This document shows positions 3,041 through 13,374 of a DNA stretch of 38,580 nucleotides, one piece after another. Position numbers and translations under genes: made by a program. This DNA comes from Candidatus Sumerlaeota bacterium (lineage in GTDB: Bacteria > Sumerlaeota > Sumerlaeia > MWCT01 > JAUWMI01), in NCBI GenBank assembly GCA_030613245.1, contig JAUWMI010000042.1:1-38580 (forward strand). Direction: 5' to 3'. How positions within the stretch are numbered: position 1 is the stretch's first letter; every line of letters starts with the position of its first letter. Under the pieces are notes generated by a model. It had not been told where the DNA came from. It saw nothing but the letters and a program-made list of their open reading frames with translations, and did not search any database.

Positions 3041-3934
3041 TCATCTCCCATCGCTTTGGAGACGCTCCTCCAGTGAATGCCATAAACCCTCAAAGGCTTT
3101 CCGCAGAACAGGCGCTTCAACCTCCACTACGGGTCGCCCCAGGAGCATGGCGTCTACCACGGCCCGATCAAACGGAATCTGAGCAACCAAGGGCGCTCCT
3201 CGATCTTCCGCTATCTTCTGTATGTCTCGCGCAGCCTCAGGATTTAAATCCCACTTGTTGAGACAAGTCACACATGGCACTCCAAAATGCTCTGCCACGC
3301 GAATAATCCGCTCCAGCGCTTGCACTCCTGCGACAGTCGGCTCAACCACAAGAAGGGCCAGATTCACGCCGGATAAGGTGGCAATGACCGGACACCCCGT
3401 GCCCGGCGCGCCATCAACCAGAATGTAGCCTGCCCCGCGTTCTTTGGCCAACTCCAGCGCCCGGTCGCGCACGTGCGTAACCAGCTTGCCAGAGTTCTCG
3501 CGTCCCGGCTCCAGCCTGGCGTGTACCAGTGGCCCATAGCTTGTTTCTGAAACATAACACTCCCCCGCGTCCATCTCCTTCATCGTAATAGCGTCTTCGG
3601 GACAAACGTGCTCACACACCTTACATCCTTCGCACTTAATAGCATCAATGCCGTAAACCCCGTTTTGGATAATCACAGCATCGAATCGGCAGGCGCTAAG
3701 ACACTCACCGCAGCTCGTACATTTCTCCAGATCAATCTGTGCAAGCAAGCCTGCGCGGAAGGGCTGAATCTCAATTCGCCGTCCGCCAAGCACCAGCGGT
3801 AAGTTCGAGGCATCCACGTCGCAGTCTGCGAGCACCTTGTCTCCAGGCATCAATGCAGCCAGCGACGCCGCAACAGTCGTCTTCCCTGTTCCCCCCTTGC
3901 CGCTGATAATACAAAGCTGCTTAATTGTGTTCAT
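3041..3934 (-). CDS. MinD/NBP35-type P-loop ATPase with inserted 2[4Fe-4S] ferredoxin domain (copy 1)
   Basis: A cytoplasmic deviant-Walker ATPase. Residues 12-20 form GKGGTGKTT, the MinD/NifH-type loop with the signature Lys. A ferredoxin module is inserted after the first strand-helix unit: Cys 72, 75, 78, 82 and Cys 101, 104, 107, 111 (CxxCxxCxxxC twice), enough for two [4Fe-4S] clusters. A switch II-like DGAPGTGCP follows. Length 297 is typical. Such ATPases occur in pairs beside DIMC (NifX/ORP-like) proteins in anaerobes, including the orange-protein (orp) operons of Desulfovibrio, where they belong to the ORP complex; the exact reaction is unknown. The ATG overlaps the upstream partner's stop by four bases (ATGA), so the pair is translationally coupled. 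It is the last gene of the cluster. Confidence 0.85.
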   Translation of the reverse strand: MNTIKQLCIISGKGGTGKTTVAASLAALMPGDKVLADCDVDASNLPLVLGGRRIEIQPFRAGLLAQIDLEKCTSCGECLSACRFDAVIIQNGVYGIDAIKCEGCKVCEHVCPEDAITMKEMDAGECYVSETSYGPLVHARLEPGRENSGKLVTHVRDRALELAKERGAGYILVDGAPGTGCPVIATLSGVNLALLVVEPTVAGVQALERIIRVAEHFGVPCVTCLNKWDLNPEAARDIQKIAEDRGAPLVAQIPFDRAVVDAMLLGRPVVEVEAPVLRKAFEGLWHSLEERLQSDGR

Positions 3935-4776
3935 CGCTTCTTGTCCCCAAACCGCGACTCAATCGCATCCAGTAATTCCTGAAACACGCTGCGCCAATGT
4001 TCGGACACGTAGGTTACAGGAACACCGCGCGAATACGCTACTGCCAGACCTCGATCAAATGGAATTTCCAGCAGAACCGGAAGCCCTTTATCGCGACAGA
4101 ACTCGCGCACCCCACTGTCGCCCAGATCACTCCGGTTGATAACCACGCCGCAGGGAAGCCCGAGAATCTTGACAACTTCACTCGCCAGCTGAAGATCGTG
4201 AAGACCGAACGGCGTCGGCTCTGTTACTAGCACACACGCATCGCACCCTTCGATCGCCGTGATCATAGCACACGACGTTCCGGGCGGCGCATCAACGATG
4301 ACCCATCCTTCTTTGTTCGCCTCTTGTTTTACCCGACGAATCAATGGACTTGGCATCGCTTCTCCGGCTTGCAGATCGCCGGTAACTACATTCACGCTTC
4401 CTGATACGCCAAATTGAATCAGACCAATCTTGCGCCGCTCTGTAGTTAGTGCATCTTCCGGACAGACGAGATAACACCCTCCACAATCCTTACAGAGTTC
4501 CGGTGTAACCAGCCATTGATCCGGGAGCACCACAAGTGCATTGTAGGCACAAAAATGCGCACATTCGGCACAAAATATGCACCGGTGCAGCAACACCCGT
4601 GGCACCGTAACATACACTGAAGAAATAGTGGAAATCTGGGGATGCAGGAAGAGCGCTGCATCCGGGTCTTCCACGTCACAATCCAACAGCTGCACGTTTC
4701 CCCGCATCAGAGCCAGATTTACCGCAACCGTTGTTTTACCCGTGCCGCCCTTACCGCTGGCAATTGCAATTCTCAC
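3931..4776 (-). CDS. MinD/NBP35-type P-loop ATPase with inserted 2[4Fe-4S] ferredoxin domain (copy 2)
   Basis: Partner of the next gene and built the same way: GKGGTGKTT at residues 8-16, LDCDVEDPDA next, then Cys 66, 69, 72, 76 and Cys 95, 98, 101, 105 in two CxxCxxCxxxC motifs, then DAPPGTSCA. The two partners are clearly divergent paralogues, as is usual for these pairs, which suggests a heterodimer coupling ATP hydrolysis to cluster or electron transfer (inference). I place the start at GTG 4774-4776, with GGGAG six bases upstream and the protein beginning directly with the beta strand before the P-loop. The open frame extends about 35 codons upstream but that part is encoded by the 81-bp palindromic repeat and is not plausible protein. 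The stop overlaps the ATG of copy 1. Confidence 0.85.
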   Translation of the reverse strand: MRIAIASGKGGTGKTTVAVNLALMRGNVQLLDCDVEDPDAALFLHPQISTISSVYVTVPRVLLHRCIFCAECAHFCAYNALVVLPDQWLVTPELCKDCGGCYLVCPEDALTTERRKIGLIQFGVSGSVNVVTGDLQAGEAMPSPLIRRVKQEANKEGWVIVDAPPGTSCAMITAIEGCDACVLVTEPTPFGLHDLQLASEVVKILGLPCGVVINRSDLGDSGVREFCRDKGLPVLLEIPFDRGLAVAYSRGVPVTYVSEHWRSVFQELLDAIESRFGDKKR

Positions 4777-4791
4777 GCTCGTCTCCCTGCC

Positions 4792-4872
4792 GGTAGCACA
4801 GGCATCCTTGCTTGTGCACTCATGCAGCTGAAAACAGGCTAGAAGCCTGTTCCACCCTGTTGAGTTTAGCGC
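4792..4872. repeat. 81-bp double-hairpin repeat, copy 1 (BIME-like)
   Basis: Begins GGTAGCACAGGCA and contains two palindromes: GCACAGGCA...TGCTTGTGC and AACAGGCTAGAAGCCTGTT. It differs at two positions from the copy at 4920-5000. The two bases that differ lie in the first stem and weaken it in this copy. Sits just upstream of the GTG of the ferredoxin-type ATPase. Confidence 0.85.
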
Positions 4873-4919
4873 CTTAGCCACCTATACATAACCAGTACTG
4901 CAGACACTGCCGCTCCCTT

Positions 4920-5000
4920 GGTAGCACAGGCATCCCTGCCTGTGCACTCATGCAGCTGAAAACAGGCTAGAAGCCTGTTCCACCCTGTTGAGTTTAGCGC
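4920..5000. repeat. 81-bp double-hairpin repeat, copy 2 (BIME-like)
   Basis: Direct repeat of 4792-4872 with stems GCACAGGCA/TGCCTGTGC and AACAGGCT/AGCCTGTT. Its last seven bases overlap the end of the DIMC gene and include that gene's TAA (4994-4996), so the element supplied the present stop codon. Confidence 0.85.
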
Positions 5001-5685: not shown

Positions 5686-6519
5686 TCAAAACTTATAGGT
5701 CAATCCCGAACAGCCTGGCGACACCCGCTCGCCCAAAGCATCCATGAGTGCCTGGACGGCCCGCCCACCTGTGCAATGGCACGGAGCTACTATGTCCGGA
5801 GAGTAAGATCGCAGAGCAGCTACCGTCCGCTCAAGACGCTGATCGCTTGCATGAAGCAGGTGGAAACCGCCGATGACCGCTCGAATCCTTGAGACCCCGC
5901 TCAAGCGGCGCACCTGGTTCAGGATATTCACCATTCCGGCATGGCAACAGCCGACACAAACGATCAACCCCTCCGGGGTATTCACCCAAAGGGCCAAATC
6001 GTCGTCAATCGGATCTGCGCGCCTTCCTTCCGGATCGAGGTAGAACGGCCCGCCAGTGTCCTCGTAGCTCGTGTCGCGCGGGATTGGCCCGGTTAAACCG
6101 ACACCCTGGCGAAGCAATGCGGCCCGAGACACCCAGTGGAGCTTATGCGCCGAAAGCTTGTCAATGGCGGCCATTGAATCACGTGGCATGTGGATAGGTT
6201 TGGCTATACCGTTTCGGATGCTGTAGCGGGGTTGGACCACCGCAGGATGGCAGTACAGCTCGATCCCCCCCGCGTGCTTGAGTACATGGAAGACGCCACC
6301 GGTGTGATCGTAGTGCCCATGGCTCAACACGAGGATGTCGGCATTGTCCAAACCGATCGCGAGCTTTCGCGCATTATCCGGAAGGGCGGTCCCCTGGCCC
6401 GTATCAAATAGAATTCGCTTGTCCTGGGTCTCTATCCATAACGACAAACCGTGTTCGGCGATGAGTCCCTCGCCAGCCTGGTTGTCGACCAGAATTGTTA
6501 TCTTCAAGTTGTCACCCAT
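5686..6519 (-). CDS. Metallo-beta-lactamase-fold hydrolase, DHPS/RFA-P-synthase-like group
   Basis: A 277-residue MBL-fold protein. The metal motif HGHYDH is at residues 67-72 (LSHGHYDHTGG), with later ligand-type His in CVGCCHAGMVN, IGGFHLL and APCHCTGG. The opening ITILVDNQ and LFDTG, and the GGFHLL/CHCTG pattern, match the group annotated as 7,8-dihydropterin-6-yl-methyl-4-(beta-D-ribofuranosyl)aminobenzene-5'-phosphate synthase-like; most bacterial members have no proven substrate. I choose ATG 6517-6519, with GGAGG eight bases upstream, over a longer frame reaching 6561. It overlaps the end of the thioesterase gene by 16 bases, so the two are probably co-translated within the ORP-like cluster. 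Confidence 0.82.
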   Translation of the reverse strand: MGDNLKITILVDNQAGEGLIAEHGLSLWIETQDKRILFDTGQGTALPDNARKLAIGLDNADILVLSHGHYDHTGGVFHVLKHAGGIELYCHPAVVQPRYSIRNGIAKPIHMPRDSMAAIDKLSAHKLHWVSRAALLRQGVGLTGPIPRDTSYEDTGGPFYLDPEGRRADPIDDDLALWVNTPEGLIVCVGCCHAGMVNILNQVRRLSGVSRIRAVIGGFHLLHASDQRLERTVAALRSYSPDIVAPCHCTGGRAVQALMDALGERVSPGCSGLTYKF

Positions 6520-6965
6520 AATCGAGGCCTCCCGCGCTGCGTAAACTTGGCCTCGGCCCAAGCCATGACACGATTCTCATGAAGGACTTCCGCTTTTAGA
6601 CGGTACAAAGGCGGCATAGAGGATAAGATTCTTGCTCTGATGTCCAAGGTGGCATCACAGGAGACGGGGTGCACGTACCGGACGTGAAGGTCCCCGGTGA
6701 GCCCCTGAATACCATGATGAAAAAGGCAGTGGGTCATCGCCGCGTCCAGTAAAGCCGCGATCACGCCACCGTGGATGATGTCGTCGTATCCTTGAAGAAG
6801 ACGGTGCGATTGGAATCTCGCCTTGACAACGCCGTCATCATCGGCCTGGAACGATAGCTTCAGAGACCATGGGTTCAGGTTGCCGCACAGAAAGCAACGG
6901 GCGTGACTATTCTTGGCGCTAATCGCTAGGGGGTCTTCAATGGTCACAGACGTTTTCCCCCGCAT
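6504..6965 (-). CDS. PaaI/YdiI-type hotdog-fold thioesterase
   Basis: A hotdog-fold acyl-CoA thioesterase-like protein of about 150 residues. The segment CFLCGNLNPWSLKLSFQ followed by YDDIIHGGVIAALLDAAMTH (active-site helix with HGG) and GDLHVRYVHPVSCDATL is typical of the PaaI family, which hydrolyses small or aromatic acyl-CoAs. The substrate cannot be told. The start is uncertain: ATG 6963-6965 has a poor SD, while GTG 6945-6947 has GGGGGA nine bases upstream and would give 148 residues. Either start lies inside the 3' end of the MrpORP-like gene, and the 3' end runs into the MBL-fold gene, so three successive genes overlap. Why a thioesterase sits in this cluster is unclear. Confidence 0.78.
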   Translation of the reverse strand: MRGKTSVTIEDPLAISAKNSHARCFLCGNLNPWSLKLSFQADDDGVVKARFQSHRLLQGYDDIIHGGVIAALLDAAMTHCLFHHGIQGLTGDLHVRYVHPVSCDATLDIRARILSSMPPLYRLKAEVLHENRVMAWAEAKFTQRGRPRLWVTT

Positions 6966-8229
6966 GAAGTGTTCCGGCAAGGTAATCGCTGACCAGTTTC
7001 TCGGGTGTCTCGGCCGCAGCGCCAACCACTACCTGGATGCCCTGTTCAGCAAACAATGCCTGGGCGCGCTGCCCTATGCCTCCGGTGATGATTATGTTTG
7101 CCCCCCGCTCCGCCAGCCACGGCGGCAGAAGGCCCGGTTGATGCATGGGAGCTTCGATGTCCTCGCGGTTGAGTATCTTCTTTTCCGTTGGGTCCACGTC
7201 GACGAGGGCGAAACGCTCGCAGTGTCCGAAATGCAAGGAAAGTTTCCCGTTCGCCAGGGGAATGGCAATTCTCATGTGTTTGTCCTCCTTATATCTCATG
7301 GTTTCCGTAGTTTTATCGACAACCTTCGTCTCATCCAAGGCCGCAATGGGATTGATGATGTTCCGCATGATTTCCGCTGTGGGGGTCGTGGCGTAGTGAT
7401 GAATAAAAGCTTGGCCGTTGTCACAGGCCTCGGCGATCTTTGGGTCCATGGGAATGGAGCCAAGATACGGTACGTTCATGTCCTCGGCGATGCGCTTGCC
7501 TCCGCCCGAACGCAGGATCTGAGTGACTTCACCGCACTTCGGGCAGGCGAAACCGCTCATGTTCTCCACCACCCCAAGCACCGGAACCTGGAGCTGCCGA
7601 CAAAACGTGATGGCCTTACGCACGTCCACCACCGCCACTTTCTGAGGTGTGGTGACGATCACCGCGCCGTCCAACTTGCCGATGAGTTGGCAGACGGAAA
7701 GCGGTTCATCACCCGTGCCCGGCGGGGAATCGATAATCAGGTAGTCCAGATCTCCCCAGGCCACGTCCTTGAGGAATTGCTTGATAACGCCCATCTTCAT
7801 TGGGCCCCGCCAGATCACGGCGTCATCCTGGCTGCGCAGGAGGAAACCCATGGACAGGACCTTCAGTCCACCCACTTCGATGGGGATCAGTTCGCCCTCT
7901 TGCCCGTGGACCGTCTCGCGTTCAAGGCCCAGCATAGTCGGAACGCTGGGGCCGTGGATATCAACATCCAGCAGTCCGACTTGCTTTCCTGACATCATTA
8001 GGGCGACGGCAAGGTTGACGGCCACCGTGCTTTTACCAACCCCTCCCTTGCCTGACAGCACGACCACTTTGTGCCGAATACGGCAAAGCCGGGATGCGAG
8101 CTTGCGGCGTTCCTCGAATTCTTGTTCGCTTTCGCCATCTCTGCGCTTGGATGCCGAGCAATCCGTGTCACCGCAGGTGTTACATGTGGCCTCGCCGTGG
8201 CGGGATTCTTTTCGTGCTTCTCGTTTCAT
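6937..8229 (-). CDS. Mrp/NBP35 ATPase fused to a DIMC domain (MrpORP type)
   Basis: Two domains in 430 residues. Residues about 1-300 are an Mrp/NBP35/ApbC ATPase, a carrier for [4Fe-4S] clusters: N-terminal CNTCGDTDC, P-loop GKGGVGKST (60-68), LLDVDIHGPSVP, IIDSPPGTGDE, and the conserved CPKC (229-232), where a bridging cluster binds between two monomers. Residues 319-430 are a DIMC domain (MRIAIPLANGKLSLHFGHCE, IITGGIGQRA). The same architecture is known from Desulfovibrio as MrpORP, linked to Fe-S biogenesis. Start at ATG 8227-8229; a TTG three codons upstream abuts the preceding remnant's stop. The interdomain linker contains a strong SD and ATG (7273-7290), so the DIMC domain is probably also made alone. 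The gene lies upstream of, and overlaps, the thioesterase. Confidence 0.92.
   Translation of the reverse strand: MKREARKESRHGEATCNTCGDTDCSASKRRDGESEQEFEERRKLASRLCRIRHKVVVLSGKGGVGKSTVAVNLAVALMMSGKQVGLLDVDIHGPSVPTMLGLERETVHGQEGELIPIEVGGLKVLSMGFLLRSQDDAVIWRGPMKMGVIKQFLKDVAWGDLDYLIIDSPPGTGDEPLSVCQLIGKLDGAVIVTTPQKVAVVDVRKAITFCRQLQVPVLGVVENMSGFACPKCGEVTQILRSGGGKRIAEDMNVPYLGSIPMDPKIAEACDNGQAFIHHYATTPTAEIMRNIINPIAALDETKVVDKTTETMRYKEDKHMRIAIPLANGKLSLHFGHCERFALVDVDPTEKKILNREDIEAPMHQPGLLPPWLAERGANIIITGGIGQRAQALFAEQGIQVVVGAAAETPEKLVSDYLAGTLHAGENVCDH
7273..7290 (-). promoter_or_regulatory. Internal ribosome binding site and start codon within the Mrp-DIMC gene
   Basis: Minus strand AAGGAGG (7284-7290), eight-base spacer ACAAACAC, then ATG (7273-7275), in frame with the DIMC domain. 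As a Shine-Dalgarno site it is better than the one serving the full-length gene. Confidence 0.7.
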
Positions 8230-8238
8230 ATGGCTCAA

Positions 8239-8431
8239 TTAACTCTCGCAAGCGGCTTTCAGATTATTGGCCACCAGGACAGCGCAATGCTCCACTTCAT
8301 CGGGTAACCCCCCAAGGCCTGAAGGACATGCTGCTGACGAATACGGACTGCGTCCTCAACACGTCGAACGACTCCGTCAAGCTGGTCTTGCCGGTTCCGC
8401 CCTTGCCGCCGATGACGACAATCTCCTTAAT
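8239..8431 (-). pseudogene. Fused remnant: MinD-type ATPase N-terminus joined to IscU/NifU scaffold C-terminus
   Basis: From 8431 one frame reads IKEIVVIGGKGGTGKTSLTE, the P-loop start of a ferredoxin-type MinD ATPase, but the expected ATG is ATT and the frame degenerates after about 24 codons and stops at 8297-8299. In a second frame, from about 8370, the DNA reads EDAVRIRQQHVLQALGG. After a run of six G it continues in the third frame as LPDEVEHCAVLVANNLKAAC to a TAA at 8239-8241. That tail matches the C-terminus of IscU/NifU-type Fe-S scaffolds (ALGGLP...HC..LA...L.AA). One more G in the run would join the two pieces. I infer a deletion that fused two former cluster genes, between the methyltransferase and Mrp-DIMC genes. 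Confidence 0.7.
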
Positions 8432-9137
8432 GCTTCCGTATTCCTCTTACGATAAATAAACTCGCCTCTTCAGGCTCACGGGTTTCAAATATATCCTCGC
8501 TTCGCACTCCCATGAAATATTCTGTTTGAACGTCAAAAAACTTCGCAATCGCCCTTTCAATCTCGTGCAGGTTTGTGTGTATTATTTTTCTCACGTAAGA
8601 GGCGGGGTTGCGGGCCTTTTCCTTGAAAAATGCCGACTCGGAGTTAAGCAACATGACGATGAGTTTGCCGGCCGGTCGGATCACATAGGCCGTTCTTTCC
8701 ACCGCCTTATTGTAGTCTTTAATGAACTGCAAAGAGGCTACATAGATCACCGCGTCGAAACAGGCTTCTGGAAAGTCCATATCCTCTGCACTCGCCTGGA
8801 TCGTTCTGATATGATCCGGAGCGCGCTCCAAGGCCTCCTGCGAAATATCCAGCCCGGTAACGACAAACCCACGTTTGCTCAAACCGGATTCGATAATTGC
8901 CGGACCGCAGCCAACGCTTAAGACATCCCTGCTTCCTTCCAAGTGTTGCAAGAGATAATCCAACTCTGCCTGGAAAACCTTCTGCCAGAATTCCGTCATG
9001 CAGGAGCGGAGGTACCTTTCCGTGTCATCGGACCTCTCTTTGGTGCCAATCCTCCCCGTGGCGGAATCCTCCATTGTACTGACGTCGGTATTCGCGGTTT
9101 TGCGCTTGTTGTTGATAATCACGTGTTTCTTCGTCAT
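8427..9137 (-). CDS. Class I SAM-dependent methyltransferase
   Basis: A 236-residue Rossmann-fold methyltransferase. Motif I is VLSVGCGPA (72-80), followed by VVTGLDIS with the acidic residue that binds the SAM ribose, IQASAEDMDFPEACFDAVIY (motifs II/III region) and the post-motif VIRPAGKLIVMLLN. The first 45 residues are polar and probably disordered. The substrate is unknown; methyltransferases of this kind recur next to DIMC/MinD clusters of anaerobes. ATG 9135-9137 with AGAGGG four bases upstream. The stop TAA (8427-8429) lies inside the ATTAAGGAG at which the downstream ATPase remnant begins, so the two genes once overlapped and were probably translationally coupled. Confidence 0.82.
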   Translation of the reverse strand: MTKKHVIINNKRKTANTDVSTMEDSATGRIGTKERSDDTERYLRSCMTEFWQKVFQAELDYLLQHLEGSRDVLSVGCGPAIIESGLSKRGFVVTGLDISQEALERAPDHIRTIQASAEDMDFPEACFDAVIYVASLQFIKDYNKAVERTAYVIRPAGKLIVMLLNSESAFFKEKARNPASYVRKIIHTNLHEIERAIAKFFDVQTEYFMGVRSEDIFETREPEEASLFIVRGIRKH

Positions 9138-11432: not shown

Positions 11433-11786
11433 ATGACCAGTCTAAAAGAAGTCAATGAGCGGTTTGACGCGCTGTGGGCCGAAGCGGAGCAATTCATCGA
11501 AGCCTACTTTCGCGCCCACAAAGAAGAGGTTAGTCATGCCGATGGCCGCACGCTCCTTATCCCCCAGATACCGGACATGCGCGAATTCAGCCTCCTCTGC
11601 ACTTGCCTCAAGCGCATACACGAAGGACGTAGACTTGCACAGACGGGTGAAACAGAGAATGGCGCTGACACAGCAGCAAATTCAAATCATTCGGAAATCG
11701 TCAACAAAGAAATTTCTCGGCTCCTTAGCCAGTTGCAAGAACGCAACGCTAAAGAAGAAGCTCCTCCGAATTCGCTGCCAGACTGA
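11433..11786 (+). CDS. Small protein upstream of terminase (possible small-terminase partner)
   Basis: A 117-residue acidic, helix-rich protein: MTSLKEVNERFDALWAEAEQ, then LLIPQIPDMREFSLLCTCLK and a Lys/Glu-rich end. I do not recognise a family. Its place just ahead of a terminase large subunit and its size suggest a DNA-packaging partner, but there is no diagnostic motif. It overlaps the terminase frame by 128 bases, more than usual, so either its true end or the terminase start may be misjudged. No clear SD precedes the ATG (11433). Confidence 0.5.
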   Translation: MTSLKEVNERFDALWAEAEQFIEAYFRAHKEEVSHADGRTLLIPQIPDMREFSLLCTCLKRIHEGRRLAQTGETENGADTAANSNHSEIVNKEISRLLSQLQERNAKEEAPPNSLPD

Positions 11787-13374
11787 CCTTGCGCTCTTCG
11801 CCCGCTACTTCTTTCCTCACCATTGCCGCCTTCCGTTTAGCCAGCTTCACCGCGATATCTTTCGTAACTATCGGGCACGGATGTGCGACAGCCTGCTGGA
11901 ACGTCAGGGCCAGAACTGGTCGGTGGCTGCCCCGCGCGGAAGCGCAAAGTCAACGCTCACCACGCTCATACTCCCCATCCACGACATCCTCTACCAGCTC
12001 GAGCGTTACATCGTCATCATTTCCGCTACCCTCAAGCAGGCCAAGCAGCGCCTGAAAAATCTCAAGGCCGAGCTACTGACTAACGAGCTCCTTCGCGAAG
12101 TCTACGGAAAGTTCCCTCACAAGAAGAAGGATTGGAGCGTAAAGAGCATTAATGCGAACGGGGTGCAGATTGACGTCTTCTCCGCAGGGACCGAACTGCG
12201 GGGCATCACGCATCACGAATTTCGCCCTACCAAGGTGATCCTGGATGACTGCGAAGATTCAGACGCTGTGGAAAGTGCAGAGCAACGCGAAAAGCTCCTG
12301 GCATGGTTTCAAGAGGTGATCGAGAACCTGGGCGATCGCTATACGCATCTCGATGTGATCGGCACGATTCTGCATCCTGAAAGTTTACTGGCTACACTGC
12401 TCAAGCGACCGGACTTTAATGGAAATATCTATCGCTCTATTATCCAGTTTTCCGAAAATACAGCTTTGTGGGGACACTGGCAGGCGCTCTACACGAACCT
12501 CGCAGATGCACAGCGCGCAACGACTGCACGCCTCTTCTTCAATGCACATCGCCAGGAAATGCTCAAAGGCACCAGCGTTCTCTGGCAGGCTAAAGAGGAC
12601 TACTACGAGCTCATATGCCAGATGACTACGCGCGGCAGACGTGCCTTTTTCAAAGAAAAACAGAACCAACCGTACCATCCCGAGTCGCGCATCTTCGATC
12701 CTGAGCACTTCAACTATTTTCGCATCGAGGGCGACAACATTGTCAGGGAATGCCGGGCACGAAGCGAGACTGCGGACGCCGGGGCAGCGCGGCAGCAGCA
12801 AGTCTCGCTCAATGATCTCACGATATTTGGATTTCTCGATTCAGCGCTGGGCAGCAGCCGCGGCAAGCGTCGCCAGAGTGGCGATTACGCTGCAATTGCC
12901 ACTGTAGGACGTGATCCACACGGGTATCTCTACGTCCTGGATCTCTGGGTCAAGCGGACGCCACCCACGAAGCAGATCGAACAGCTCTTTGAGTTGCATC
13001 AGCGCTGGCATTATCAGCTCTTTGGAATCGAGACGAATTGTTTTCAGAAATTGCTCTTGCTACCGCTGGAGGAAGAACGCAAGCGGCGCAAGCAGGCGGG
13101 TGAGCAATGGGATTTAGCGGTGCGAGAAGTAACGCATAAGCAGAATAAGGTTGAACGCATCATGAGGATCGAACCAGCGGTGGCAAACGGCTGGATTGTG
13201 TTCAATCGCCAGCTGCCCGCGCTGTTTTTCCAGCAGAGCGAAGAATTCCCTTGCGGTTCGCATGACGATGCCCTGGATGCACTGGAAGGTGCTATCTCGC
13301 TCTCTGCCCGCCGGCCAATTAACCACCAGGCCATGGGCACACGAAAGAGCTATAAGGCCCTACGGCATTTCTAG
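11659..13374 (+). CDS. Phage-type terminase large subunit (DNA-packaging ATPase/nuclease)
   Basis: Motor of phage or gene-transfer-agent DNA packaging. In 571 residues: an N-terminal ATPase with a Walker A-like APRGSAKST (91-99) and Walker B VILDDCEDSD (193-202), and a C-terminal RNase H-like nuclease with the first acidic residue in FGFLDSALG, then SGDYAAIATVGRD, and near the end GSHDDALDALEGA, the usual terminase signature. A start at ATG 11659-11661 (GGTGA eight bases upstream) gives a normal terminase N-terminus ending in LALFARYFFPHH; the longer open frame upstream overlaps the small gene and has no homology feel. No portal, capsid, protease or tail gene follows: the next genes are a secreted protein and a membrane glycosyltransferase. 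It is either a prophage relic or an isolated gene. Confidence 0.82.
   Translation: MALTQQQIQIIRKSSTKKFLGSLASCKNATLKKKLLRIRCQTDLALFARYFFPHHCRLPFSQLHRDIFRNYRARMCDSLLERQGQNWSVAAPRGSAKSTLTTLILPIHDILYQLERYIVIISATLKQAKQRLKNLKAELLTNELLREVYGKFPHKKKDWSVKSINANGVQIDVFSAGTELRGITHHEFRPTKVILDDCEDSDAVESAEQREKLLAWFQEVIENLGDRYTHLDVIGTILHPESLLATLLKRPDFNGNIYRSIIQFSENTALWGHWQALYTNLADAQRATTARLFFNAHRQEMLKGTSVLWQAKEDYYELICQMTTRGRRAFFKEKQNQPYHPESRIFDPEHFNYFRIEGDNIVRECRARSETADAGAARQQQVSLNDLTIFGFLDSALGSSRGKRRQSGDYAAIATVGRDPHGYLYVLDLWVKRTPPTKQIEQLFELHQRWHYQLFGIETNCFQKLLLLPLEEERKRRKQAGEQWDLAVREVTHKQNKVERIMRIEPAVANGWIVFNRQLPALFFQQSEEFPCGSHDDALDALEGAISLSARRPINHQAMGTRKSYKALRHF

Follow-up and report, generated by a model that had tools for sequence, protein, structure and literature searches.

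A probable deletion scar with remnants of a MinD-type ATPase and a NifU/IscU scaffold domain upstream of mrpORP

The window analysed here, a 38.6-kb stretch of DNA (38,580 nt), carries on its minus strand an intact mrpORP gene (6937-8238) encoding a P-loop NTPase and a Nitro_FeMo-Co domain. The protein scores 540 bits against the NCBIfam MrpORP equivalog NF041136 (cut-off 450) and also matches PF10609 and PF02579; candidates for its start codon are ATG 8229 and TTG 8238. On the same strand, an intact gene for a SAM-dependent methyltransferase (8427-9137; Methyltransf_11, Pfam E 1.1e-16; stop codon TAA at 8429-8427) lies upstream of mrpORP, and two divergent MinD-type ATPases with a ferredoxin insert, MinD_A (3931-4881) and MinD_B (3041-3934), are found downstream. 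Between the methyltransferase gene and mrpORP is a 196-nt spacer (8434-8239, minus strand). From the sequence of this spacer, the original prediction had proposed a deletion scar at 8239-8431 in which a MinD-type ATPase is fused to a piece of an IscU/NifU scaffold. Such a scar was confirmed, its true extent being 8434-8239.

Read on the minus strand, frame 1 of the spacer yields IKEIVVIGGKGGTGKTSLTESFDVL from position 8431. As predicted, this is a P-loop peptide with ATT (8431-8429) in the place of the expected ATG, and no ATG, GTG or TTG is available past the preceding in-frame stop. The second frame reads VEDAVRIRQQHVLQALGG and the third LPDEVEHCAVLVANNLKAACES, the latter up to TAA 8241-8239. 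These two frames meet in a run of six G (8313-8308, minus strand), where a single extra base joins both scaffold pieces. The peptides, the G-run and the effect of one more base were thus all as described; the peptides do lie in differing frames, but the scaffold tail shares the reading frame of MrpORP.

The first part of the scar (8357-8434, minus strand) corresponds to codons 1-25, including the P-loop, of a MinD-type ATPase of the kind that adjoins mrpORP in other genomes. Over 78 nt, it is 82% identical in DNA sequence (blastn) to the MinD gene upstream of a NifU-MrpORP gene in a genome of the same class (locus L089, genome G009), and with L089, as with about ten other relatives, the similarity ends at 8357. 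The deviant Walker A motif GKGGTGK and the flanks typical of the MrpORP-adjacent group are present at the start of the scar (33.6 bits with a MinD profile). Nothing is left beyond the 25 codons, after which the MinD part of the scar ends, with the full ATPase domain and the ferredoxin insert absent from it. The start codon is ATG in 39 of the 54 relatives counted, and the others have GTG or TTG at this position or another standard start 2-10 codons earlier. Because intact relatives without ATG have a standard start at or just before this codon, the missing ATG was counted as damage. MinD_B was considered as a parent of the remnant and rejected, as its N-terminus differs (KQLCIISGKGGTGKTTVAASL vs KEIVVIGGKGGTGKTSLTESF) and the scar is instead similar to the MrpORP-adjacent group. 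With this group, the scar agrees in P-loop, DNA identity and gene position, but it retains only 25 codons, and the two intact MinDs of the window represent another, divergent pair. The N-terminal remnant, together with intact MinD genes at this place in relatives, bears out the proposal that a third MinD ATPase once lay between the methyltransferase and MrpORP and has since been deleted.

The second part of the scar (8242-8363, minus strand) stems from a NifU/IscU scaffold domain, of which it represents the C-terminal third (VEDA...ALGG/LPDEVEHC...ACES). A 47-aa peptide obtained by bridging the frameshift matches Pfam NifU_N (PF01592) with 23.4 bits (E 7.2e-5), above the curated cut-off of 22 bits, and NCBIfam NifU_clost (TIGR03419) with E 1.6e-5; the similarity to IscU/NifU on which the original prediction depended is therefore found. 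Alignment to NifU domains begins at VEDA and covers approximately the last 40 codons of the scaffold domain. At the DNA level, the remnant is 69% identical to locus L037 over 120 nt, with a single one-base gap in the G-run (8308-8313), where L037 has seven G and the window six, so that both scaffold pieces derive from what was once a single frame. The fused scaffold domains of relatives match the same families, and one of them, that of locus L009, matches solved IscU/NifU structures by sequence (E 1e-23). All 19 such domains have the full Cys triad of the IscU site (GPCG, GC, HC). In contrast, only HC is left in the scar tail, the other two cluster-holding Cys falling within the deleted part. 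Retaining one of three cluster Cys and about the last third of the domain in frameshifted form, the tail is a remnant and cannot be a functional member of the family.

Both similarities exceed chance. A scaffold profile built from the 19 intact fused domains was searched against all six frames of the window, and the only matches with E <1 were the two adjacent pieces of the scar, covering near-consecutive profile positions (102-126, E 1.6e-8; 86-108, E 9e-4). When 2000 dinucleotide shuffles of the spacer were scored with the scaffold and MinD profiles, the shuffle maximum was 11.0 bits for the scaffold, compared to 29.5 and 15.0 bits for the two frames of the real sequence, and 7.2 bits for MinD, compared to 33.6 bits.

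The intact arrangement is evident in relatives. Eighty MrpORP loci were fetched, which together with a few same-class genomes provided 80 usable MrpORP sequences for a tree. In 19 of the 80 loci, a single open frame encodes both the scaffold domain and MrpORP; in another 10 the scaffold lies directly upstream of MrpORP, mostly as its own gene, and in 7 it is found elsewhere in the locus. No scaffold was seen in 37 loci, and 7 were too short to judge. Fused loci span at least eight phyla, including Sumerlaeota, Hydrogenedentota, Myxococcota, Thermodesulfobacteriota, Planctomycetota, Acidobacteriota, Chloroflexota and Caldifarciminota. In G009/L089, the gene order is methyltransferase, MinD, NifU-MrpORP, metallo-hydrolase, so that the methyltransferase gene precedes MinD there too, and both an intact MinD and an intact IscU/NifU are present at the place where the prediction suggested looking for them in sister genomes. 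The proposed Fe-S scaffold dedicated to the system, located between methyltransferase and MrpORP and later deleted, was thus upheld as to its presence and deletion, but not as a separate gene: it was most likely the N-terminal domain of MrpORP itself. Two variant structures were noted among the relatives. In genome G016, a 313-aa frame (L093:3911-4849, minus strand) seems to join a NifU domain straight to ORP (Nitro_FeMo-Co), without the Mrp P-loop domain in between; residues 2-161 and 421-553 of the query align in one frame. In Smithella sp. M82, the scaffold profile matches two overlapping frames upstream of MrpORP (L038:5595-6008 and 5791-5970), possibly due to a frameshift or a sequencing error.

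The two remnants meet at CGTGTTG (8363-8357, minus strand), a word that fits both parent genes: the MinD gene of L089 reads GCCGTGTTG / GCCGTGTTGGCC and the NifU sequence of L037 reads CGTGTTGAGGAC. The junction may thus hold up to 7 nt of microhomology, as pieced together from two different relatives, no single relative having both forms; other relatives differ by at least one base on one or the other side. The distance between the breakpoints in normally spaced relatives is about 1.0-1.17 kb, figures to be raised by 12 nt, the scaffold coordinate used lying 12 nt before VEDA. Microhomology-associated deletion pseudogenes are a well-known general kind. The scar resembles them in its single internal deletion, the short word at the join, and its frameshift and nonsense changes, with the difference that its microhomology is reconstructed from two relatives.

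We consider it very probable that the spacer is a genuine decayed scar left by a single deletion in an ancestral methyltransferase/MinD/NifU-MrpORP locus, the pre-deletion sequence of which was inferred from same-class and other-phylum relatives. The ancestral locus would have consisted of the methyltransferase gene, a gene for a MinD-type [4Fe-4S] ATPase, and one scaffold-MrpORP gene with scaffold, carrier and ORP modules. One deletion of ∼1.05-1.17 kb, probably by slippage or end-joining at the short repeat CGTGTTG, would have removed the ATPase except for 25 codons along with about the first two thirds of the scaffold domain, so that the upstream ATPase would have been lost through the same event as the scaffold. 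Further lesions would have abolished any usable start codon, removed one base from the G-run and changed a Tyr codon to a stop.

The genome is a 97-contig draft, in which an error of assembly or binning might mimic a deletion wholly or partly absent from the organism. This is very unlikely here, as a false join would not account for the missing start codon, the shifted frame and the added stop as well. Moreover, no second, intact copy of the deleted MinD type or of the scaffold part was found elsewhere in this 96%-complete genome, and the two genes joined have no long repeat at the join (the putative overlap is up to 7 nt). Open frames of 38-55 codons in the spacer might also be taken to suggest a functional short gene, small RNA or regulatory leader, a reading to which we attach almost no credence: the frames switch partner mid-domain and have no usable start, and in no relative is the same short fused sequence conserved as a gene. 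Rfam, tRNA and promoter scans gave nothing relevant to the scar, as the window had no match in Rfam, and neither a promoter-like site nor a minus-strand terminator was detected.

Another question is whether the deleted scaffold was part of MrpORP. Residues 96-553 of the fused L009 protein (553 aa) align with window positions 6943-8319 at 74% identity (E 4.5e-236), and this alignment contains one TAA. The HC motif and the first Cys of the MrpORP N-terminus are 105 nt apart in the window, just as in the fused loci L089 and L049. The in-frame TAA separating scaffold tail and MrpORP (8241-8239, minus strand) aligns with Tyr, Phe or Cys of fused relatives, and a change from TAC or TAT to TAA requires a single base substitution. 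Because the window retains the fused frame and the linker length, interrupted by one TAA and one frameshift, its MrpORP probably descends from a NifU-MrpORP fusion whose scaffold was lost. Since a relative of the same order (L092) keeps the MinD-MrpORP arrangement with the scaffold absent, the argument for a fusion in the ancestor draws on the frame, the linker and relatives further removed. Alternatively, the scaffold could have been a separate nifU gene of which TAA 8241-8239 was the original stop, with the frameshift and missing start as later damage. Separate nifU genes do occur just upstream of mrpORP in Syntrophaceae/Smithella (L024, L034, L035 and others), the in-frame TAA could be the normal end of such a gene, and its frame would match that of mrpORP by chance in one case out of three. 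Nevertheless, we regard this history as unlikely: the tail is in the MrpORP frame with a linker as long as in fused relatives, the TAA occupies the Tyr/Phe/Cys position, with the stops of L024 and L034 lying several codons further on, and those same-class genomes with a complete scaffold-MrpORP region (G009 and G027) have it fused.

A fused ancestor would differ from the Desulfovibrio protein. MrpORP of Desulfovibrio (Orp9/Dde3202) is a two-domain Fe-S carrier, unlike the window's relatives with their extra N-terminal NifU/IscU domain, and transfer of Fe-S clusters to apo-proteins is reported for Desulfovibrio MrpORP proteins only (PMC6345978). Passages of that paper on MrpORP, which its abstract calls a two-domain protein, make no mention of a fused scaffold (PMC6345978), and no description of a NifU-MrpORP fusion was found among open-access papers. 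Having lost its scaffold, MrpORP of the window would now be translated from an internal ATG or TTG, presumably functioning as a two-domain protein like that of Desulfovibrio.

Loss of the scaffold looks recurrent. Fused and scaffold-less states are intermixed in the MrpORP tree, and the starred branches alone force at least 5 changes for the fused state and at least 9 for the state with none, in a tree from a quick, short search in which the direction of changes was not polarised. A single gain or loss of the scaffold was rejected on account of the at least 5 changes forced on starred branches. Loss is the simpler reading because two remnants are visible, that of the window and another in a Syntrophaceae MAG, where a decayed nifU lies between MinD and MrpORP (L028:3023-3290). 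The start and end pieces of this nifU are ∼70% identical to L024, with stops between them, and its decay is independent of the scar in the window.

As a pseudogene, the scar is of an ordinary kind; of greater interest is the fused scaffold-carrier protein to which it points. The function of the orange-protein/MinD ATPase clusters of anaerobes is unclear, and to our knowledge it has not been established where MrpORP obtains its Fe-S cluster. Covalent joining of the scaffold to the carrier in many phyla is a direct genomic hint that transfer from scaffold to MrpORP is a real step. We lean slightly towards the view that NifU/IscU, Mrp/NBP35 and ORP in one chain form a dedicated Fe-S assembly line of the MinD/ORP system in anaerobes of many phyla, making a cluster and passing it on within a single protein, which was repeatedly split or lost, the window preserving one such loss with legible lesions. 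The scar also indicates that MrpORP can survive intact when the scaffold joined to it and the ATPase next to it disappear, suggesting that a general NifU may replace them. One gene for a full-length NifU, with Fer2_BFD and C-terminal domains, was found in the genome, and this single stand-alone NifU may supply the clusters for the present-day MrpORP.

The two divergent MinDs downstream may likewise have made the lost ATPase dispensable, with MinD_B as a possible stand-in. The closest match found for MinD_B is in genome G006 (57% identity, with other class members at 50% or less), and MinD_A is 63% identical to G006. In a MinD tree, both are on long branches and divergent from the MrpORP-adjacent group; in view of these long branches, their placement was not relied upon. 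Both (3041-4881, minus strand) are about 50% identical to most relatives and stand beside an otherwise typical MrpORP; two gene sets may have come together in this cluster. An 81-nt element is present in two copies, 98% identical (4792-4872 and 4920-5000), in the gap between NifX and MinD_A, and the true start of MinD_A is probably near 4780, after this dispersed repeat. Its core ACAGGCTAGAAGCCTGTTCCAC occurs 12 times in the genome with up to 1 mismatch, the reversed control giving 0 occurrences. Just past the DUF134 end of the MrpORP cluster and on the opposite strand, a frame at 11455-13374 (plus strand) matches phage terminase large subunit families (PHROG 38, E 1.3e-85), and may belong to a prophage or its remnant.
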